Shown here one piece after another: positions 49,764-61,523 of a DNA stretch of 64,000 nt; the stretch's first letter is position 1, and each line of letters starts with the position of its first letter. The translations under genes and the position numbers were made by a program. The DNA is taken from positions 124,001 through 188,000 of the forward strand of contig JAQTTU010000003.1 in assembly GCA_028710605.1 (NCBI GenBank), given 5' to 3'. Under the pieces are notes generated by a model. It made no database searches. It had not been told where the DNA came from and saw nothing but the letters and a program-made list of their open reading frames with translations. Source of the stretch: Sideroxydans sp. Its GTDB lineage: Bacteria > Pseudomonadota > Gammaproteobacteria > Burkholderiales > Gallionellaceae.

Positions 49764-50720
49764 TCAAACCGAAATCCGGTGTCCCGGATTCAGCAGATCA
49801 ATAATGCTCTGATGTCCGGCCTTGACGGCGAGATCGAGCGGCGTGCTGCCATCCTGATATTGCGCGTAGCGGTTCGCGCCTTTGTCCAGCAGCAGTTTGA
49901 CGATCTGGGTATGACCGTTGTTGGCGGCTTTGTGCAGCGCCGTCCAGCCGTCCATACTGGCCAGATTCACATCGGCTCCTTTCGCGATCAAATAGGCGCA
50001 TGCCAGCAGATGTCCGCGCGTGGCGGCCTGCATCAGCGCGGTCCAGCCGAACTGGCTCTGGATATTCGGATCGGCTCCCTTCTCCAGCAACAGATTCACC
50101 ACTTTGTCGTAGCCGTTGTAGGCCGCCCAATGCAATGGCGTGTAGCCGGTCTTGTCGCAGGCGGTAATTTTTGCGCCGCATTTGATCAGCAGCAGCGCGA
50201 ATTCTTCGTTGCCGTTGAATGCCGAGATCATCAGCGGAGTCCAGTCGCGCTCGTCGCGGATTTCCAGATCCACGCCGCACGACAGGAACACCTGCACCGC
50301 ATCCTGATTGCCATCCTCCACCGATTTCAGCAGCCCTTGCGGGGTGAATTCGTAACCGAGCTGCTCGACTTCCAGACGTTTAAACTCGGGGATGTCATCC
50401 CATGCATTGATTGTTAGATCCTGGCCGTGCAACGAGTGCAGATAGTTGCTGATGCGGATGATTTCCGCCGCCGCTTCCGGCGGAAAACCCGCCCGGTCTC
50501 CGCCGCGTTTGTCCACCATCAAGTCTTGCAGATAGTCCTCGATGTGCTCGGTCTCTATCAGTTCCTGAATTTTGCCGAACACGCGCGGAAAACGCGCTTC
50601 CAGCACGTTGGGGTAAATGCTTTCGTTATTGCCAAGCAGTTTGAGTAGTCTCTGATCCACAGTCTGAATACCATCCCGGAAATTGCCGACATTGGTTTTG
50701 AAATGACAACATAGCGACAA
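49764..50720 (-). CDS. Ankyrin-repeat protein with shared N-terminal domain (paralog 1)
   Basis: Five or so ankyrin repeats (DWTPLMISAFNGNEEFALLLIKCGAKITACDKTGYTPLHWAAYNGYDKVVNLLLEKGADPN). Confidence 0.9.
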   Translation of the reverse strand: MSLCCHFKTNVGNFRDGIQTVDQRLLKLLGNNESIYPNVLEARFPRVFGKIQELIETEHIEDYLQDLMVDKRGGDRAGFPPEAAAEIIRISNYLHSLHGQDLTINAWDDIPEFKRLEVEQLGYEFTPQGLLKSVEDGNQDAVQVFLSCGVDLEIRDERDWTPLMISAFNGNEEFALLLIKCGAKITACDKTGYTPLHWAAYNGYDKVVNLLLEKGADPNIQSQFGWTALMQAATRGHLLACAYLIAKGADVNLASMDGWTALHKAANNGHTQIVKLLLDKGANRYAQYQDGSTPLDLAVKAGHQSIIDLLNPGHRISV

Positions 50721-50830
50721 ACCAATTCATTCCCGCGCAAAATCCTTTGCGCGAACAAACAGATAATACTCTCAGGCGGGGGTTTCAGAGCGTCAAATTC
50801 TTTTCCGTTTTCGGCAATACACCAAGTCCC

Positions 50831-52345
50831 CTACTCCGCGCTGACCTGGACGGGCGCGGGCGCACCTTTGGGCGGCGTGCGCACCAGCAGGATCAGCGGC
50901 AGCATCACCAGAAAATTCAGCGTGGCGAACCAGAAGCTGTCGATGTAGGCGATGTTCTGCGCTTGATGCATGACGGCTTTGGCGGCGAGCGCGATGCCTT
51001 GCGGGTCTTGCACGCCCAGATGCAGCGGTGAAAGATACGCGTGCAACGATTCGCTGTACGGCGTGATCTCGCCGCGCAACAGCCCCCAGTTTTGTTGCGC
51101 GCTGCGCGAAAAATAAGTGGCCAGCACCGAGATGCCCAAGGCCGAACCGAAGGTGCGGATCAGGCTGTAAATCCCCGCCGCCTCGGCGGCGACCGCTTTG
51201 GGCAGCGTGGTGAACGCCAGCGTGGAAATGGGAACGAACACCAGCCCCATGCCCATGCCTTGCAAAATCATCGGCCACATCAAATCGCTGGCGGTGATGT
51301 CGCCGGTGAAGCGCGTCATCAGATAATTTCCAGCGACGCTGCATGCGATGCCGATCAGCACGAAATTGCGCGGCGGGAATCTGCCGGAAAATTTGCCGAC
51401 GAAGATCATCACGAAAAACGAGGCTAGCCCGCGCGGAGCCATGTACAGCCCGGCATCGAACGTGGGGTAGCCGAGAAAGTTTTGCAGGAACAAGGATTGC
51501 AGCACCATACCGCCGAAAAAGCCGACACCGATGGTGGTCATAATCAGGCAGGCGACCAGAAAATTGCGGTCGCGGAAGATGCGCAAATCGAACAGCGGAT
51601 GATGTTTGCCGGTGAGCGTATAGACGATGAAAAAGATCAGGGCGATGACCGCCAGCACGGTGGCGAAAACAAGCGTTTGCGAGCTGAACCAGTCATCCTG
51701 ATTGCCTCTATCCAGCACCAGTTGCGCCGCGCCGATCGCCACCGCCAGCGAAGCGAAGCCCAGCCAGTCCATGCGCCGTTCGCGCGTTTCGCTATCCGGC
51801 ACGTGACGCAGGGCGAGGATGAAGGAAATGATGCCGACCGGCAAATTGATATAGAACGTCCAGCGCCAGCTGATCACATCGGTGAGCCAGCCGCCCAGCG
51901 TCGGCCCCAGAATCGGCGCGACCATCACGCCCATCGCCCAAATCGCCATCGCTTTGCCGCGCTGTTCGCCAGGAAATGTTTGCAGCATGATGGATTGCGA
52001 CAGCGGCACCAGCGACGCGCCGAACACGCCTTGCAAAAAACGGAACAGCACCATTTGCGCCAGACTGTTCGCCATGCCGCACAGCGCGGAAGCGATGACG
52101 AAACCGGCGATGCAGATCAGCAAAAAACGCTTCTGCCCCAGACGGTCGGTGAAGAAGCCGGTGAGCGGCATGAAGATGGCGGAAGCGATCAGGTACGAGG
52201 TGAGCACCCAGCCGATGTTGTCCGGCGTGGCATCGAGTTGCCCCGCCATGTTGGGCAGCGCCACGTTGATGATGGTGGTGTCCAGCACCTGCATGATGGT
52301 CGCCGACATCACGGCGATGCTGGTGAGAACGCGGCTTTTGCTCAT
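50831..52345 (-). CDS. emrB: DHA2-family MFS efflux transporter (EmrB-like)
   Basis: MSATIMQVLDTTIINVALPNMAGQLDATPDNIGWVLTSYLIASAIFMPLTGFFTDRLGQKRF; 14-TM DHA2 pattern. Confidence 0.92.
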   Translation of the reverse strand: MSKSRVLTSIAVMSATIMQVLDTTIINVALPNMAGQLDATPDNIGWVLTSYLIASAIFMPLTGFFTDRLGQKRFLLICIAGFVIASALCGMANSLAQMVLFRFLQGVFGASLVPLSQSIMLQTFPGEQRGKAMAIWAMGVMVAPILGPTLGGWLTDVISWRWTFYINLPVGIISFILALRHVPDSETRERRMDWLGFASLAVAIGAAQLVLDRGNQDDWFSSQTLVFATVLAVIALIFFIVYTLTGKHHPLFDLRIFRDRNFLVACLIMTTIGVGFFGGMVLQSLFLQNFLGYPTFDAGLYMAPRGLASFFVMIFVGKFSGRFPPRNFVLIGIACSVAGNYLMTRFTGDITASDLMWPMILQGMGMGLVFVPISTLAFTTLPKAVAAEAAGIYSLIRTFGSALGISVLATYFSRSAQQNWGLLRGEITPYSESLHAYLSPLHLGVQDPQGIALAAKAVMHQAQNIAYIDSFWFATLNFLVMLPLILLVRTPPKGAPAPVQVSAE

Positions 52346-52352
52346 AATTATT

Positions 52353-52460
52353 CAGCCACGGATGAACACGGATAGGCACGGATAAAATCCAAAGCGCGTG
52401 CAGACCCGCTGACAATCCGATAGCGATAATCCGTGATCACCTGTGTTTATCCGTGGCTTG
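52353..52460. repeat. Facing CACGGAT short-period repeat
   Basis: GCCACGGATGAACACGGATAGGCACGGATAA...ATAATCCGTGATCACCTGTGTTTATCCGTGGC. Confidence 0.9.
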
Positions 52461-53451
52461 ATTTTGAATTCAAATTTACCGTCACCGTCGCCGTCGCGCC
52501 TATGCGCAACGGATGCTCGGCATCGGTCGGCGCGAGCTTGATACGCACCGGCACGCGTTGCGCGATCTTCACCCAGTTGCCGGTGGCATTCTGCGGCGGC
52601 AGCAGCGAGAACGCCGTGCCCGTGCCGCCGGAGAGACTTTCCACCGAGCCTTTGAAATGCTGGCCGGAATACATATCGATCAGGATGTCCACATCCTGGC
52701 CGACATGAATTCCAGACAATTCGGTTTCCTTGAAATTCGCTTCGATGTGAAAACTGTCCTGCGCGATCAGCGCGAACAGCGGCGCACCGGCATTCACCAG
52801 CGATCCCGCCGTCAGCGTCAGGTTGCTGATCTGCCCGTCCTGCATCGCGGTGATGTGCGTGTGTTGCAAATCGAGTTTGGCCTGCGCGATGGCGGCCTGC
52901 GCCTTCAGCACGTCGCCGCGCTCTTCGGTCTTCTGCGGCGCGGAGAGCGCCTTGGCCAACTTGGCGCGCGCCTGATCCAGCGAGGCCTGCAAAGCCTGCA
53001 TACGCGTCTGCGCGTCGTCCACGGCTTGCTGCGAAAGGAAGTGTTGCGCGACGAGTTCCTTGTCGCGCGCATAACTGCTGCGCGCATTGGCCAGATCGCC
53101 CTCGGTCTGCGCAACTTGCGCCCGCGCTGCGGCGGCTTCCGCATTGTCCTGCCGCGCGTTTTGCTTCGCCACGGCCAGATCGGCCTGGGCGCGGCTCAAT
53201 GCGATGGCGAAAGGTTCGGGGTCGATGTCGAACAGCACGTCGCCTTTGTGAACATACTGGTTGTCCTGGACATGCACGGCGACCACGCGCCCACCGACTT
53301 GCGCCGCCACGTTCACCACATCCGCGTTGATGTAAGCATTTTCTGTGCTGCGCGACTGCCCGGAGAAATGCGCGATGGCAAAGCCGATCAGCAAGGCAAG
53401 CAGCAACAGCGCGATGGCGACAGGTTTCTTGTTTTCGGCGATACGTTTCAT
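52447..53451 (-). CDS. emrA: HlyD/EmrA-family membrane fusion protein
   Basis: MKRIAENKKPVAIALLLLALLIGFAIAHFSGQSRSTENAYINADVVNVAAQVGGRVVAVHVQDNQYVHKGDVLFDIDPEPFAI. Confidence 0.93.
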   Translation of the reverse strand: MKRIAENKKPVAIALLLLALLIGFAIAHFSGQSRSTENAYINADVVNVAAQVGGRVVAVHVQDNQYVHKGDVLFDIDPEPFAIALSRAQADLAVAKQNARQDNAEAAAARAQVAQTEGDLANARSSYARDKELVAQHFLSQQAVDDAQTRMQALQASLDQARAKLAKALSAPQKTEERGDVLKAQAAIAQAKLDLQHTHITAMQDGQISNLTLTAGSLVNAGAPLFALIAQDSFHIEANFKETELSGIHVGQDVDILIDMYSGQHFKGSVESLSGGTGTAFSLLPPQNATGNWVKIAQRVPVRIKLAPTDAEHPLRIGATATVTVNLNSKSSHG

Positions 53452-53921
53452 GCGATTGTTCCCAGTTTGCCGCGAATGCTGTTCAGCACATCGCAGGCGG
53501 TTTTAATCTCGGCCTGACTCAGGCCGTCCAGCAATTCCTTGCGCAAATCGGCGGCGTAAGCGCGGATATCTATCACCACTTTCTTGCCGCTATCGGACAA
53601 GCACAGATGCTTCACGCGCCGGTCGGTTTCGCTGCCGCAGCGGCTGAGCAAGCCTTCCTTTTCCATGTGATCGACCAGCCTGACCAGCGTCGCGGCTTCG
53701 ATGCCCATGTGCTGCGCCAGTTCGTGGTGGGTGCAACCGTCATGGCGCGAAAGATGCAACAGCAGCATCCAGCGCGAATGCGAAAACCCCAAAGGGCGCA
53801 AGCGCCTGTCCAGCTCGTTGCGCCAGGCGCGCACTGCCATAAACATCGACTCCGAAAATTGCTCGTTCAGGGATTTCATTATAGTTGGCCAGCTAATTGT
53901 TTGCTTGCTAACTATTTTCAC
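53448..53921 (-). CDS. MarR-family transcriptional regulator
   Basis: RAWRNELDRRLRPLGFSHSRWMLLLHLSRHDGCTHHELAQHMGIEAATLVRLVDHMEKEGLLSRCGSETDRRVKHLCLSDSGK. Confidence 0.93.
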   Translation of the reverse strand: MKIVSKQTISWPTIMKSLNEQFSESMFMAVRAWRNELDRRLRPLGFSHSRWMLLLHLSRHDGCTHHELAQHMGIEAATLVRLVDHMEKEGLLSRCGSETDRRVKHLCLSDSGKKVVIDIRAYAADLRKELLDGLSQAEIKTACDVLNSIRGKLGTIA

Positions 53922-54047
53922 GGAAAGCGGCGGTTTTGTCGAGCGCGGGATTCGTAACGCCGGATGCTGCGGGAGGGGCGATGCCCGGAACAGAAAATTT
54001 CGGACATCGAAAATGCGCGGAGCGACGCTACACTCCGTGTATGCGTC

Positions 54048-54935
54048 TCAATCGGTTTGGCACAGCAGCGCGACAATCTCCGAATGACCGAATTTGCTGG
54101 CCAGATTGAGCGGCGAACTGCCGTCTTTCTGCCGCGCCTGACGGTCGGCACCTTTTTCGATGAGCAATTTGACCACGGCAAGGTGTCCGTTTTGGCAAGC
54201 TCTATGCAACGCCACACTGCCATCCTCGCTGACCTGATTCACATCCCCACCGAAAGCGATCAGGTAGGCGGAAGCGACCAGATGCCCGCGCGCCGCTGCC
54301 AACATCAGCGGAGTCCAGCCAACTTTGCATTGCTGATTCGGATTGACACCGTGATCCAGCAGCAATTTCGCCACGTTGCCATGGCCGTTATAGGCGGCCC
54401 AATGCAGTGCGGAGTAACCCTTCATATCGCGCACATCGGTCTTTGCGCCGCTCTCCAGCAGCATCTTGACCACGTCATCCGACCCCTTGGCCGAGGCAAT
54501 GATCAGTGCGGTCCAATTGCGCTCGTCGCGCACCTCAAGATTGGCACCAAAATCAATCAGTCTTTTCGCAACCTCGAGATTGCCGTCTTCCACCGCTTTC
54601 AGAAAACTTTTTGTTGTCACTTCATAGCCGGATTGCATAATGACCTTGCGCTTCTTGTCGGCATCGACACCGCCCCAGACATCAAGCTCTTTGTCTTGCA
54701 CATGAATTTCGCTGTGGTAACTGCTGAGGCGGAAAATTTCCTTGGCGGCCTCGGGCGGAAAACCTTCGCGATCCCCTCCGCGCGTGTTCAACAACAGGTC
54801 TTGCAGATACGCATCAATTCTAGGGGTTTCCCACAATTCGAGCAGCTTGCTGAAAACGCGCGGAAACCTGGCTTCCAGCACATGGGGATAAACCGCCTCG
54901 TTGCCATCCAGCATTCTCAATAGCGTCGGATTCAT
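54048..54935 (-). CDS. Ankyrin-repeat protein with shared N-terminal domain (paralog 2)
   Basis: MNPTLLRMLDGNEAVYPHVLEARFPRVFSKLLELWETPRIDAYLQDLLLNTRGGDREGFPPEAAKEI... then ankyrin repeats (NWTALIIASAKGSDDVVKMLLESGAKTDVRDMKGYSALHWAAYNGHGNVAKLLLDHGVNPN). Confidence 0.9.
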   Translation of the reverse strand: MNPTLLRMLDGNEAVYPHVLEARFPRVFSKLLELWETPRIDAYLQDLLLNTRGGDREGFPPEAAKEIFRLSSYHSEIHVQDKELDVWGGVDADKKRKVIMQSGYEVTTKSFLKAVEDGNLEVAKRLIDFGANLEVRDERNWTALIIASAKGSDDVVKMLLESGAKTDVRDMKGYSALHWAAYNGHGNVAKLLLDHGVNPNQQCKVGWTPLMLAAARGHLVASAYLIAFGGDVNQVSEDGSVALHRACQNGHLAVVKLLIEKGADRQARQKDGSSPLNLASKFGHSEIVALLCQTD

Positions 54936-55058
54936 AACCTTGATCCCTTTTGTAGTTTTGCAACATATTACATTGTATCCGCATCGTATTGATCCGATGC
55001 ACATTACTTTCTACTGCGGCGAAAAAAGCAACAAGTCGGTTTCGGTGAAGTGTGAAAA

Positions 55059-56993
55059 TTATAGTGAATCTTTAGGGTTGAAAAAAGCCACCGCCTCCGC
55101 TTCGTCGCGCGTGCGCTTGAACGGCGGCAGGCTTTGCCAGATACGTTTGCCGTAATGTTTTGAAATCAGGCGCGGGTCGCAAATCATCAGCACACCCCGG
55201 TCGCTCTCGTCGCGGATCAATCGCCCCGCGCCTTGCTTGAGATTGATGATGGTGCGCGGCAACTGGTATTCCATGAAGGCGTTGCGTCCCTGCTTGTTCA
55301 GCTCCGCGATGCGCGCAGACAGCACCGGATCGTCCGGCGGCGCGAACGGCAGCTTGTCGATGATGACCAGCGACAAGGCCTCGCCGCGCACATCCACGCC
55401 TTCCCAAAACGACTGGCTGCCCAGCAGCACCGCGTTGCCGTGTTCGCGGAAACGCGTGAGCAACTCGTTGCGCGAACCCTCGCCCTGAATCAGCAACGGG
55501 AATGTCAAATTCTTGCGGTCGAATTCGGCTTGCAGGATTTCGTATGCGCGTTGCATAGCGCGCAAACTGGTGAACAACAAAAATGCACGGCCTTTGCTCG
55601 CCTCGATCAACGGCAGCGCCGCCTGCACCACGGCATCGGTATAACCCTCGGTGTTCGGCTCCGGCAGATTCTGCGGCACATACAGCAACGCCTGTTGCTG
55701 ATAATCGAACGGACTGTCCCAGCAGGCGGTGCGCGCTTCGAGCAGCCCCATCTCGTTTTGATAATGTGAAAAGTTCTGCTTCACCGCGAGGGTGGCCGAG
55801 GTGAATATCCAGGCGCGCGGATGGCCGCTGATCTGTTTGGCGAAGATGTCGGCGATGGATAACGGCGTGGTGTTGAGTTGCAGCGAGTGATGAAAAACTT
55901 CCAGCCAGCGCACCGTCTCCGGCACATCGTCGTCCTGCCAATGCTTGAGTTGTTGCGCCAACGCCAGTGCGCGCTGCCAGCAATTCTCCAACCCTTCGCT
56001 GCGCTCGGCCTGCCTTTCCAACAGCCCGGCGAGCTTGGTCAACTTCTCGCCCAGCGTCTTCAACGCAGGTGCAAACTCCTTGATGCTTTGCGTCGCATCC
56101 GCCGCCATGCGTCCCTCCTTTTTGAACGCGAGGCGCAAATCGCGCGCGGCTTTTTCCAGCTCATCGCATGCCAGCGGCAGCGGCGCAAAATCCTTGGCCG
56201 AGGTCAGCGCCTCGATGCGCGCATCGCGTGTCAAGTCGAGCAATTGCGAGGTGGAAAGACTTTCGCCGAAAAACAGGCTGGCCGTCTCCGGCAACTGGTG
56301 CGCCTCGTCGAAGATCACCGTGTTGCAAGCGGGCAGTAACTCTGCCACGCCCTCGTCGCGCAGCATCACATCGGCGAAAAACAAATGATGGTTCACCACC
56401 ACCACGTCTGCTTCCATCGCCTCCTTGCGCGCCTTGAGCACGAAACATTCCTTGTGCTGCGGGCAGTCCTGTCCGAGACAGTTGTCGCGCGTCGAAGTCA
56501 CGTGCATCCAGATAGGCGCGCTCTCCGACACATCCGCCAATCCGCTCTTGTCGCCGCTCTGCGTCACCTTGGCGTACTGCACGATCTTCGCCAAATGCTT
56601 CACATCCTCGCGCGTCTTGAACAACCCGTTCGATTGCGCCAGTTCCAGATGGTAATGGCACACATAATTCGAGCGCCCCTTGAGCAGCGCCACCGACACC
56701 GGCGCTTTCAAGGCATCGCGCACCATGGGCAAATCTTTTTGGAACAGTTGGTCTTGCAGGTTTTTGGTACCGGTGGAAATCACCACCTTGCCGCCCGCCA
56801 GCAGCGCGGGCACCAGATAGGCGAAAGTTTTGCCCGTACCCGTTCCCGCTTCGGCCACCAGAATCGCGTTGTCGCGTATTGCTTCCGCCACGGCTATTGC
56901 CATGTCGCGCTGTTGCGCGCGCGGACGGAACGATGCAACTTCGGTGGCAAGCGGGCTTTGCTCGGAAAAAAAACGATCTACTTCGGTGGGCAC
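55059..56993 (-). CDS. dinG: DinG/YoaA-family ATP-dependent DNA helicase
   Basis: FRPRAQQRDMAIAVAEAIRDNAILVAEAGTGTGKTFAYLVPAL, DEAHQLPETAS, four cysteines of Fe-S cluster region (CHYHLE...CLGQDCPQHKECFV). Confidence 0.94.
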   Translation of the reverse strand: MPTEVDRFFSEQSPLATEVASFRPRAQQRDMAIAVAEAIRDNAILVAEAGTGTGKTFAYLVPALLAGGKVVISTGTKNLQDQLFQKDLPMVRDALKAPVSVALLKGRSNYVCHYHLELAQSNGLFKTREDVKHLAKIVQYAKVTQSGDKSGLADVSESAPIWMHVTSTRDNCLGQDCPQHKECFVLKARKEAMEADVVVVNHHLFFADVMLRDEGVAELLPACNTVIFDEAHQLPETASLFFGESLSTSQLLDLTRDARIEALTSAKDFAPLPLACDELEKAARDLRLAFKKEGRMAADATQSIKEFAPALKTLGEKLTKLAGLLERQAERSEGLENCWQRALALAQQLKHWQDDDVPETVRWLEVFHHSLQLNTTPLSIADIFAKQISGHPRAWIFTSATLAVKQNFSHYQNEMGLLEARTACWDSPFDYQQQALLYVPQNLPEPNTEGYTDAVVQAALPLIEASKGRAFLLFTSLRAMQRAYEILQAEFDRKNLTFPLLIQGEGSRNELLTRFREHGNAVLLGSQSFWEGVDVRGEALSLVIIDKLPFAPPDDPVLSARIAELNKQGRNAFMEYQLPRTIINLKQGAGRLIRDESDRGVLMICDPRLISKHYGKRIWQSLPPFKRTRDEAEAVAFFNPKDSL

Positions 56994-57169
56994 AGGAGAG
57001 GATGTTAAAAATATTTAGGTCGCAAGTTCGGTGTAAATTTTTCGCTATAATCCATCGCTGAAGATAATGCTATAGTCTGAAAAGACCACAAATGATTTTA
57101 CGCGAAAGATCGCGCAAAGAGTTCTGGAAAATGATTTCCTAACAATGATTGAAGAAATGGTGCTTGCTT

Positions 57170-59485
57170 GTGAGTGACTCACAATATCCGAATATTTCGG
57201 ACGCAACCGAACGGGAAGGCATCGCCTTCCCGGCATTCATGGCGGAACACTATCCGCGCATCCTGCTGCAAATCGAACAAAACTGGGGCGGCATTACTGC
57301 CAACAATTTCTTCGACACGCTGCTGCTCGACAACCGCGAAGACCGCGAGGGCTTCCCCCAGGAAGCAATCCGGGAAATCGAGCTGCTCAAGGAATTCCAC
57401 AACTTTCTCTTTCCCCTACTCTCCGTCAACCCTTACGATCCGTTCAGCAGCGGCGGAATTCTCTCTCCCTTGGCCGAAACGTTCGCGCACAATCCGGCCG
57501 CCAATTCCAGCGCAACCGCAACCGCATTTTCACTGGGCGACGACACGATCCCGCCCGCCTCCGCCCCCGCAAAAAACGCGGAAAAGCCGGTGCACGGGCG
57601 CGGCAACTGGCCCAAGGTTCGCACCCAGCACGAGCTGTCCGCCATTTCCGAACTGCGCCGCAGCAATCAAAAACTTTATGCGCAACAGGGAAAACCTGTC
57701 GGCGAAATTCTGGTTCATTTCGGTTTTTCCGACGAGAAGTCGTTACGTGTCGTGCGCCGCATGCAGGAAAGAAATGAACAGGAAGCCAAGCCTATCGGGC
57801 AAGTGATGGTCGAACTCGGCATGATTGCCCAGGAAGACTTGACTTGCGCGCTGTGCGTCCAGTCCGGGATCATCATGGTGGATTTGGCGGCGATCACCAT
57901 TCCGCCCGAAACCAGCAAAATCATCCCCAACGACCGGGCCAGGGAAAGAATGGTCGTGCCCGTCGGCATTTACCACGACACGCTTTATCTGGCCGTGGAG
58001 GATCCGTTCACGTTCAAGGACGCATCGTTTTTCACCATGCTGACCATGCATAAAGTGGAACCCGTTTATGCGCCGCACAATGAAATTGTGAACCGTCTGA
58101 ATATGCACGGTTTTGCAAAAAGCAATTTCGTCATGCGCGAGGCCAAGGAAGAGTTCCGCAATCTGGCGCAACTGGCGTGCGATGCGCTGCCCAGCAGCCC
58201 GGAGTTTGAGTCCGAAAAGCTTGAAGCCAGCCTGTCCGAAAACGATGCCACCATCATCAAGCTGGTCAACAAGATGATATTGAATGCCTACTTTGAGGGG
58301 GCATCCGACATCCACGTCGAACTGTTTCAGGGCAGCCCGGAAACCGAGATCCGTTTTCGCCGCGACGGAGTTCTGGAGCATTTCTCCAGCTTTCCGCGCT
58401 CGTATCACCCGGCTGTCATATCGCGCATCAAAATCATGTCGGGGCTGGACATCTCGGAACGTCGCCAGCCGCAGGACGGAAAAATATCTTTCGGCCTGCC
58501 GGAAGGAGAGCGCATCGACTTGCGCGTATCCACCATCCCCGGCTTGCGCGGGATTGAATTCATCACCATCCGCATTTTGTCTTCCGGCGAGCCGATTCCG
58601 TTATCCGATCTCGGCATGTCCGAGCGCGACATGAAAGTCTTCCGCGAATCGACACAGCGCACCTACGGACTGATTCTGGTATGCGGCCCGACCGGCAGCG
58701 GCAAAACCACCACCCTGCATTCGGCCATCAAGGAACTGAACACCCCCGACCGCAAAATCTGGACGGCAGAAGATCCGGTGGAAATTGTGCAGCCGCATTT
58801 GTGCCAAGTGCAGGTGCATAACAAAATCGGCCTGGATTTCGCCAAGATATTGCGCGCCATGCTGCGCGCCGACCCCGATGTCATCATGATCGGCGAAATG
58901 CGCGATCAGGAAACGGCAAAGATCGCATTGGAAGCCTCCATGACCGGCCATCTGGTGCTGTCCACGCTGCACACCAACTCGGCCTCCGACACGGTGGCGC
59001 GACTGCTGGACATGGCGACCGACCCCTACAATTTGTCGGATGCGCTGCTATGCATACTCGCCCAGCGGCTCGCGCGCAAGCTATGCAGCCAATGCGCGAC
59101 ACGCGAGGAAGCCACCGCGTTTGAACTTGAAGAACTCGCCAACGAATACCACCAGTCCGGCCATGACAAGCGCCCGTCACGCGCCGAGCGCGAAGCGCTT
59201 ATTCGCGCATGGCACGAAGCTTACGCCGATGCCGATGGCAAGCTGTATCTCAAACACGCGGTCGGATGCAAGGCATGCAGCGAAGGCTACAAGGGGCGCA
59301 TCGGCTTGTACGAACTGCTGCAAATCACCCCCAAGGTGCGCCACCTGATTCGCTTGCAGTCGTCCGCCCAAGAATACAAAGCGGCCGGAATAGCCGAAGG
59401 CATGAGAACACTGAAACAGGACGGTATTGAAAAAGTTTTTCGCGGCATCACCGATATTATTCAGGTTCACAGCGCATGTGCCTGA
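57170..59485 (+). CDS. GspE/PilB-family assembly ATPase with MshEN-like domain and extra N-terminal domain
   Basis: GPTGSGKTTTLHSAIKELNTPDRKIWTAEDPVEIVQPHLCQVQV, AMLRADPDVIMIGEMRDQETAKIALEASMTGHLVLSTLHTNSA; CSQC...CKAC zinc motif; start taken as GTG 57170. Confidence 0.94.
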   Translation: MSDSQYPNISDATEREGIAFPAFMAEHYPRILLQIEQNWGGITANNFFDTLLLDNREDREGFPQEAIREIELLKEFHNFLFPLLSVNPYDPFSSGGILSPLAETFAHNPAANSSATATAFSLGDDTIPPASAPAKNAEKPVHGRGNWPKVRTQHELSAISELRRSNQKLYAQQGKPVGEILVHFGFSDEKSLRVVRRMQERNEQEAKPIGQVMVELGMIAQEDLTCALCVQSGIIMVDLAAITIPPETSKIIPNDRARERMVVPVGIYHDTLYLAVEDPFTFKDASFFTMLTMHKVEPVYAPHNEIVNRLNMHGFAKSNFVMREAKEEFRNLAQLACDALPSSPEFESEKLEASLSENDATIIKLVNKMILNAYFEGASDIHVELFQGSPETEIRFRRDGVLEHFSSFPRSYHPAVISRIKIMSGLDISERRQPQDGKISFGLPEGERIDLRVSTIPGLRGIEFITIRILSSGEPIPLSDLGMSERDMKVFRESTQRTYGLILVCGPTGSGKTTTLHSAIKELNTPDRKIWTAEDPVEIVQPHLCQVQVHNKIGLDFAKILRAMLRADPDVIMIGEMRDQETAKIALEASMTGHLVLSTLHTNSASDTVARLLDMATDPYNLSDALLCILAQRLARKLCSQCATREEATAFELEELANEYHQSGHDKRPSRAEREALIRAWHEAYADADGKLYLKHAVGCKACSEGYKGRIGLYELLQITPKVRHLIRLQSSAQEYKAAGIAEGMRTLKQDGIEKVFRGITDIIQVHSACA

Positions 59486-59543: not shown

Positions 59544-61523
59544 ATGATGCGCACGGCCTACGAAAAATCTTTGCCTCAATTCAGATTGAAGCGCAACTTT
59601 CACCTGCGGGTGAAAAACGTTCTGACGACTTCACTTTTTTTAACGCCCTGTCTCGCTTACGCAGTCGGTATCGGCGAAGCTGAAATGCAAAGCCGCCTGG
59701 GCGAACCCTTGCGCGTTCGCGTGGAATTGACGGCTGACAAGTCGGAACATATCGAAAGCGCCTGCTTATCTCTGGCCAAGCCGAACTCGGATGAGGATCA
59801 AAACAGCTTCCTTACCCGCGCACGCATTTCCCTTCTGGCGGCAGCCGGTCGGTCGTATGTCGAAATCCGCACCAATGAACCGTTCAACGAACCGTTCGCC
59901 ATGATGCGCTTACAGATCAAGTGTCCCGGCTCGGGGATGGGGGTCTTCCTCAAGACGCTCGCCATATTGCCCGATCTGCCAGGCGCGACCGAGCTGGCGC
60001 AGAATGCCCCCATCAGCGCCCCGGCAGAAATGCCGGAAAGCGCGCAACCGGCTGCCGACGAGGCTATCGCACCCGGCACAGCCGTTCCCGCCGCGCCGCA
60101 ACCAACCCTTGCCACATTGCCGGAAAATCCCGCACTGCCAACGAACAACGCGATGGCCGCCTCTGCACCGGCGCAGACCGCCAAAGTGGAGACAGCCCCT
60201 GCCGCCCAATTGCCGCCCGTTGTCGCGCCATCGCCGCGCCCCAAAGCCGCGCCTACCCGGCGCAACGGTCTGGAAACCGTACTGGCCAAGCCTCGTTCCC
60301 GCGCGAAACGTCAGGCGCAAAGCGGTCGCTCCAAAGCATTTTACAAACCGGCTTTCAGGCTCAAACTTTCCGGTTCGCTGCTGACTGAATCGCCCGCAGG
60401 AATGACCAGTGAAAAAAGAAAAGCGCTGTTGCGGGAACAGCAAAAAGATCAGGATGCGGACAACCAGACCGCCCAGTATTTAACGCTGCTGCACCAGGTC
60501 AAACTGTTGCAGGAAGAACTGGAAAGCGTAAAACTGCAACTGGCGCAATTGCAAACCACGCCCAGTCTCGCTGCATCATCGGCGGAAGCCGCTTCGGCCA
60601 TCGCGGCAGCACCGGTCGCCGCATCCGCTGCCGAACCGGCGCAGGAAACACCGCCCCGCCCCGTCGCCAACCCGCCCGTCGCGACACCCAGCCAGCCGTC
60701 CTCGTCTCCCTTCGGCAAGATGAACATCGCCTATTTTGTCGCCGAACTGTTTTCTGCGGCATTGATCATTTTGCTGGGCATGCGTTTTATCAGCCGGAGA
60801 AAAACCCATCTGCAAGACGAAGACCTGTTCCAAACATTTACCCCCAAACCCGCGCAAGAGCCAGCGCCCGCCAAACAAAAGATTGAGCCCTCTCTTGCCA
60901 ATGTCCCGCCGTCAGGATTCCTGCGTACCCAGCCGCCTTCCCGTCCGGTAACAACATCGGTGAACACCTATTTCCCGGAGCCGCCGACGGAAACTTCCGA
61001 AGCGGATTTGCTCATGGAAGAAGCGGAGCTTTACAACATCCACGGCCACCCCGACAAAGCCGCCGTTATTCTGGGAGAGATCATCCAGAAATACCCGGAC
61101 AAGAACGAAGCCAGACTGTTGCTGTTGAACATCTATTCGTCCACCGGGAAGAAGCAGGAATTCGAACGCGCCGCCCAAGACCTCATGCGTCTCAATCCCG
61201 ACGAGGCGACCATGCAAACCATTCAAACACTGGAGCGCGTCTTCAATCAAAAGAAACCGCTTAGCACCGGCGAAACCACCGCCAAAATTCCTGCCGCAAA
61301 ACCGACGACCCCGCTGGATCTTGAGTTCGAATTGCCTTCCAGCAGCGAAAAGAAACCCGAGATCAATTTTGAAATCCCCACCCAGAAAATAGCCGTGGCG
61401 GACATCAACTTCGACATCCCCGCCGCCGGGCCGGACACAGACAACCCCGTACCCGCGCCGTCCGGCAAACCGAACCAGGAGATCGCCGTCGATCTGGATG
61501 CGCTGATGAAAAACCTCAAATAA
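59544..61523 (+). CDS. FimV-like protein (N-terminal FimV domain, TM, C-terminal TPR-like region; no LysM seen)
   Basis: YAVGIGEAEMQSRLGEPLRVRVELTADKSEHIESACLSL; EADLLMEEAELYNIHGHPDKAAVILGEIIQKYPDKNEARLLLLNIYSSTG; IAVDLDALMKNLK. Confidence 0.85.
   Translation: MMRTAYEKSLPQFRLKRNFHLRVKNVLTTSLFLTPCLAYAVGIGEAEMQSRLGEPLRVRVELTADKSEHIESACLSLAKPNSDEDQNSFLTRARISLLAAAGRSYVEIRTNEPFNEPFAMMRLQIKCPGSGMGVFLKTLAILPDLPGATELAQNAPISAPAEMPESAQPAADEAIAPGTAVPAAPQPTLATLPENPALPTNNAMAASAPAQTAKVETAPAAQLPPVVAPSPRPKAAPTRRNGLETVLAKPRSRAKRQAQSGRSKAFYKPAFRLKLSGSLLTESPAGMTSEKRKALLREQQKDQDADNQTAQYLTLLHQVKLLQEELESVKLQLAQLQTTPSLAASSAEAASAIAAAPVAASAAEPAQETPPRPVANPPVATPSQPSSSPFGKMNIAYFVAELFSAALIILLGMRFISRRKTHLQDEDLFQTFTPKPAQEPAPAKQKIEPSLANVPPSGFLRTQPPSRPVTTSVNTYFPEPPTETSEADLLMEEAELYNIHGHPDKAAVILGEIIQKYPDKNEARLLLLNIYSSTGKKQEFERAAQDLMRLNPDEATMQTIQTLERVFNQKKPLSTGETTAKIPAAKPTTPLDLEFELPSSSEKKPEINFEIPTQKIAVADINFDIPAAGPDTDNPVPAPSGKPNQEIAVDLDALMKNLK

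Follow-up and report, generated by a model that had tools for sequence, protein, structure and literature searches.

A previously unnamed helical domain of betaproteobacteria carried by ankyrin-repeat proteins, a PilB-like ATPase and FimV-family proteins

Pilus ATPases are controlled through their N-terminal domains, and the N-terminal domain of PilB is the place where regulators bind (PMC8389850). The known case of regulators acting in this way is the Xanthomonas PilB-PilZ-FimX complex, in which the site is ND0/ND1 (MshEN-like) and not an added helical domain (PMC8389850). The second related system is that of the polar landmark proteins FimV/HubP, whose cytoplasmic C-terminal domain is a hub for client proteins and brings a c-di-GMP phosphodiesterase to the cell pole (PMC9061725, PMC12918733). 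The locus described here lies in a stretch of 64,000 nucleotides from Sideroxydans sp., which is called the window below. Two ankyrin-repeat proteins (Ank1 and Ank2) and a PilB/GspE-type ATPase in the window share an N-terminal domain, called X here, and a FimV-family gene stands directly downstream of the gene for the ATPase (X-ATPase). The features are as follows.

49764..50660, minus strand: Ank1 (X domain and ankyrin repeats), 298 aa from GTG 50660
50415..50660, minus strand: X domain of Ank1 (alignment, genome profile)
49791..50324, minus strand: ankyrin repeats of Ank1 (Pfam Ank_2, E 1.4e-57 over the whole protein)
54048..54935, minus strand: Ank2 (X domain and ankyrin repeats), 295 aa from ATG 54935, ribosome-binding site AAGGGA
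54687..54935, minus strand: X domain of Ank2 (alignment, genome profile, AF2 model)
54060..54596, minus strand: ankyrin repeats of Ank2 (Pfam Ank_2, E 1.4e-68 over the whole protein)
57170..59485, plus strand: X-ATPase (X, linker, MshEN, T2SSE; PilB/GspE-type), GTG start
57188..57424, plus strand: X domain of the ATPase (alignment, genome profile, AF2 model)
57875..58108, plus strand: MshEN domain of the X-ATPase (PF05157, 38.8 bits, cut-off 23.1)
58238..59467, plus strand: T2SSE ATPase domain (PF00437, 393 bits, cut-off 24.9)
59544..61523, plus strand: FimV-family protein (FimV_N, TPR), directly downstream of the X-ATPase

The preliminary description had aligned the N-termini of the two ankyrin proteins and the ATPase, and pairwise local alignment against shuffled sequences confirmed that they are homologous at the positions it gave. 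The two ATPase pairs scored 74 (Ank1) and 94 (Ank2) against shuffle maxima of 59 and 58, so that none of 5000 shuffles of either pair reached the observed score (z of 10.4 and 14.9), and the same was true of all 500 shuffles for Ank1-Ank2 (z of 58). When a profile of the three segments was run against the 3.36 Mb genome, it matched exactly the Ank1, Ank2 and ATPase sites. All three genes are intact, and their dN/dS values against the sister genome G017 (ATPase 0.10, Ank2 0.11, Ank1 0.12; 0.09-0.24 inside the X domains alone) indicate real genes under purifying selection. The likely true starts, judged from start codon, ribosome-binding site and ortholog alignment, are ATG 54935 for Ank2, GTG 50660 for Ank1 and GTG 57170 for the ATPase, and the reading frames as originally given are therefore slightly too long for the genes.

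The shared domain is about 65 residues long and has five helices. In the AlphaFold2 model of the ATPase copy, the helices span residues 6-13, 19-24, 26-35, 41-50 and 61-77, with pLDDT above 90 for most of the core, and those of the Ank2 copy (3-8, 18-23, 25-34, 40-49 and 61-81) occupy the aligned positions. The signature of the domain is yPrIxxKIxxLWgtPexxxYLxxLlvDxRGgRxGFPxevxxEIxxL, in which the R..R.GF residues, located in the loop that joins helix 4 to helix 5, are invariant in alignment A5. With 23 diverse members searched against each library, X matched no family in Pfam, NCBIfam or PHROGs; PDB sequence profiles gave nothing significant (best E 0.045 and 0.062), and Foldseek with the AF2 model gave nothing credible (best E 2.1 in the PDB and 1.5 among the BFVD viral models). 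On the strength of these searches, an already named family was rejected as an explanation of X. The preliminary description had likewise recognised no named family, and it had listed a Pfam match or unrelated folds of the ankyrin and ATPase N-termini as signs against its proposal; no Pfam match was found, and the predicted helices of the two kinds of copy coincide. X was also absent from the viral contigs and phages searched, and a phage or mobile origin was dropped for want of any such relative. As shown here, X is a real, previously unnamed domain family of betaproteobacteria.

The family is widespread in the order of the window's organism, where 163 of 399 sampled genomes carry it; a sample of 399 genomes from across the phylum gave 8 carriers, and 7 of these belong to the same order. 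Carriers include Gallionella, Ferriphaselus, Methylobacillus, Thauera, Azoarcus, Aromatoleum, Rhodoferax, Cupriavidus, Chitinibacter and Thiobacillus, as well as the gammaproteobacteria Methylobacter and Methylovulum; the laboratory strains Aromatoleum aromaticum EbN1, Chitinibacter tainanensis and Cupriavidus metallidurans CH34 have it too. The order and the near hits suggest Gallionellaceae-like organisms as the closest relatives of the window. Five architectures were found: ankyrin proteins with an N-terminal X (97 distinct examples in a sample biased towards the genus); PilB-like ATPases (MshEN and T2SSE) with an N-terminal X; FimV-family proteins that end, or nearly end, in one or two X domains placed after TPR; a coil or acidic linker followed by X; and short X proteins (about 60-140 aa), in some cases with a membrane segment. 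Single variants were also seen. Two X-ankyrin proteins (L110:3799-5199 and L115:2631-4046) have an extra unnamed N-terminal region of about 150 residues, which in L110 has no Pfam match; a short X protein gene of Cupriavidus metallidurans CH34 (NC_007974.2:2340263-2340598) has no feature listed in the plasmid collection; and one X match (G137:C16:121-318) belongs to an ORF that a single in-frame TAG codon interrupts and is a possible pseudogene.

A tree was built from 148 X sequences of less than 80% identity, taken from ankyrin, ATPase, FimV and short proteins. In it, the X domains of the ATPases make up a single clade (support 0.976) that is separate from those of the ankyrin proteins, and the Ank1 and Ank2 domains are placed among those of other ankyrin proteins; judged from this tree, ATPase X is an old, separate branch. 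These data bear on the simplest explanation of the locus, namely that the ATPase took X from the adjoining ankyrin gene and that the clustering reflects nothing but shuffling within the locus. The proximity of the three genes, all within 10 kb, would fit such an event, but the ATPase clade spans five genera and the X-ATPase architecture is conserved in distant families, which makes the explanation extremely improbable; we regard local domain shuffling as refuted by the X tree together with the X-ATPase distribution.

The X-ATPase resembles the PilB/GspE/MshE-type assembly ATPases in that T2SSE, with its Walker motifs, and MshEN both exceed their Pfam cut-offs, and PilB and PilF are its best sequence relatives in the PDB. 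It differs from them in the additional N-terminal X and in falling below the equivalog cut-offs for PilB (TIGR02538, 492.6 bits against 675.65) and GspE (TIGR02533, 446.1 bits against 630.25); its NF053729 score is likewise below the cut-off (20.4 bits against 38). MshEN receptors of c-di-GMP are defined by two tandem RLGxx...LxxxLxxQ motifs. By eye, the second half-motif of the X-ATPase agrees with the published motif in its relaxed form, with Pro where the motif has Arg, and the first is degenerate, so that c-di-GMP binding by this protein appears doubtful. No pilin, PilC or secretin genes were seen beside it, and it can be described as a conserved orphan of five genera and 6 of 399 genomes. 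Full-length orthologs (G000, G265, G273, G044, G172 and G192) score above 1200 bits with coverage from the first residues; below them there is a gap to about 700 bits, where paralogs align only from about residue 194, after X. The X-ATPase is conserved over its full length in G017 too. Other ATPase genes were noted in the course of this search. The window's own genome encodes a second long T2SSE ATPase of 837 aa (L119:2310-4820, C15), whose N-terminal region is GAF-like by eye and whose gene adjoins one resembling a GAF-HD protein. Genome G000 carries a 545-aa T2SSE-family gene twice, at a distance of about 80 kb (C15:326407-327540 and 406114-407247, equal score 5.2e-98); the copy examined has a lytic-transglycosylase-like neighbour, and the pair points to duplication of a conjugation-type region or to an artefact of assembly.

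The FimV-family proteins with X share with FimV/HubP the FimV_N domain, a membrane segment and cytoplasmic TPR, and differ in the TPR+X module, which is usually C-terminal. A TPR+X model matched 46 of the 399 genomes of the order in 20 genera, mostly with both parts and in a few cases with just one half, TPR or X. FimV_N exceeded its Pfam cut-off in five of these proteins (L100, L254, L256, L257 and L267) and stayed under it in three (L106, L243 and L246). Among nine proteins tested, the NCBIfam FimV C-terminal model had no match and FimV_core had one weak match below its cut-off. The possibility that the X-bearing form is the canonical FimV gene was rejected, since the 12 loci examined have mostly differing gene contexts with no asd-truA arrangement by eye. 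The window's own FimV-like gene (59544-61523) matched FimV_N with 43.4 bits (cut-off 27) and TPR_19 with 26.4 bits (cut-off 25), and neither the LysM core TIGR03505 nor the FimV C-terminal model at E 0.01; according to the genome-wide X profile, its product has no X. X-ATPase and X-FimV co-occur weakly, in 3 of 6 genomes (Fisher p = 0.02; p = 0.12 at genus level).

Both ankyrin proteins are above the Ank_2 cut-off (192.6 and 227.9 bits), and like other bacterial ankyrin-repeat proteins (Ank_2 and others) they have several repeats (pLDDT about 98), differing from these in the N-terminal X. Against the listed Dot/Icm effector models they score far under the cut-offs and match via the repeats only. 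In the window and in G017 the gene order is FimV-family gene, X-ATPase, DinG helicase, Ank2 and Ank1, so that a FimV_N gene adjoins the X-ATPase in G017 also, and this neighbourhood is kept in that one sister genome only. The window has MFS efflux pump, EmrA-like and MarR-like genes between Ank1 and Ank2 (50831-53921), which are missing there in G017; in G176, an MFS gene and an EmrA-like gene form a pair next to Ank1. The preliminary description had proposed a shared recruitment or localisation module, possibly linking the ankyrin proteins to the ATPase. The first part has gained strength because X is modular on several scaffolds, FimV-family proteins included. The specific link is not supported: among own and same-genus genomes, an X-ankyrin is present in 22 of 25 and an X-ATPase in 2 of 25, so that the ankyrin proteins must be able to do without the X-ATPase, and both the separate branch of ATPase X and the narrow conservation of the locus speak against it.

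Beyond the genus, all-against-all clustering of 720 neighbouring ORFs from 80 loci revealed no conserved neighbour of X genes and yielded just a generic ABC ATPase and synteny of close relatives; a conserved cross-genus X operon was rejected on this basis. It is quite possible, if less probable than the reading we prefer, that betaproteobacteria use X as a generic and mobile helical interaction domain whose copies bind unrelated partners, with the ankyrin, ATPase and FimV fusions belonging to no common pathway. The very varied contexts with neighbours that change between genera, the weak co-occurrence of X-ATPase and X-FimV and the separate branching of the ATPase copies all agree with such a domain, but not the fact that the two recurring larger non-ankyrin scaffolds, FimV-family proteins and the PilB-like ATPase, both belong to type IV pilus or pole biology.

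Some neighbours within the genus and elsewhere concern c-di-GMP. In six same-genus species (L226-L230 and L233), a gene for an HD-GYP phosphodiesterase (HD_5, E 1e-31) stands directly before the Ank gene or overlaps it, and several of these species also have a gene for a globin-coupled GGDEF cyclase close to the pair; neither the window nor G017 or G176 shows this arrangement. In G044, HslU separates the X-ATPase from a PilZNR-PilZ gene on its upstream side. GGDEF/EAL neighbours were counted by motif at 15 of 100 X loci, a raw count without background that we do not use as evidence. X could accordingly be imagined as a ligand-sensing domain, for a nucleotide such as c-di-GMP for example, with the D.RG.R.GFP loop as putative binding site and each attached output being tuned by it. 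The invariant basic loop that follows helix 4, the HD-GYP gene beside Ank in sister species and the PilZNR-PilZ gene near one X-ATPase are in keeping with this, but X matches no known nucleotide-binding domain in fold or motif and the loop may just as well be structural, so that we consider ligand sensing unlikely.

In conclusion, we propose that X is an undescribed all-helical family of betaproteobacteria and most likely serves as a module for protein docking in the type IV pilus or cell-pole apparatus with a common partner, to which we give a probability of about 0.5. We infer protein binding by X, a partner common to the copies, and a setting in the pilus or pole and c-di-GMP control. Shared docking at the pole or pilus is the simplest reading because X sits at the C-terminus of FimV-family proteins and at the N-terminus of the extra ATPase, which are the published client and regulator sites; the FimV fusions, the FimV_N gene downstream of the X-ATPase and the overlap of Ank and HD-GYP genes in sister species support recruitment. 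Against docking stand the missing cross-genus operon, the weak co-occurrence of X-ATPase and X-FimV, the window's FimV without X and the X-ankyrins that mostly occur without an X-ATPase. In the proposed mechanism, X would form the end of the cytoplasmic TPR region in membrane proteins of the FimV family and cap the N-terminus of the extra PilB-like ATPase, on the side where known PilB/GspE ATPases receive regulators, and the ankyrin scaffolds, coiled-coil linkers and free-standing forms would acquire the same binding face through it. Proteins bearing X may then dock to, or compete for, the common partner, and the ankyrin and short X proteins could act as adaptors or competitors at the pole or pilus apparatus. 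More speculatively, and somewhat improbably as we see it, X might be a dedicated docking domain by which FimV-type polar hubs take on ankyrin scaffolds, small adaptors and an additional pilus motor, forming a modular polar-recruitment code coupled to c-di-GMP turnover.

X is carried by about 40% of the sampled genomes of the order, yet it has no model in the curated libraries searched, and X proteins therefore tend to be labelled hypothetical or just ankyrin. The clients of FimV are poorly known, and the repeated fusion of X to FimV-family proteins and to a pilus-type ATPase offers a handle on the placement and regulation of type IV pili in betaproteobacteria.
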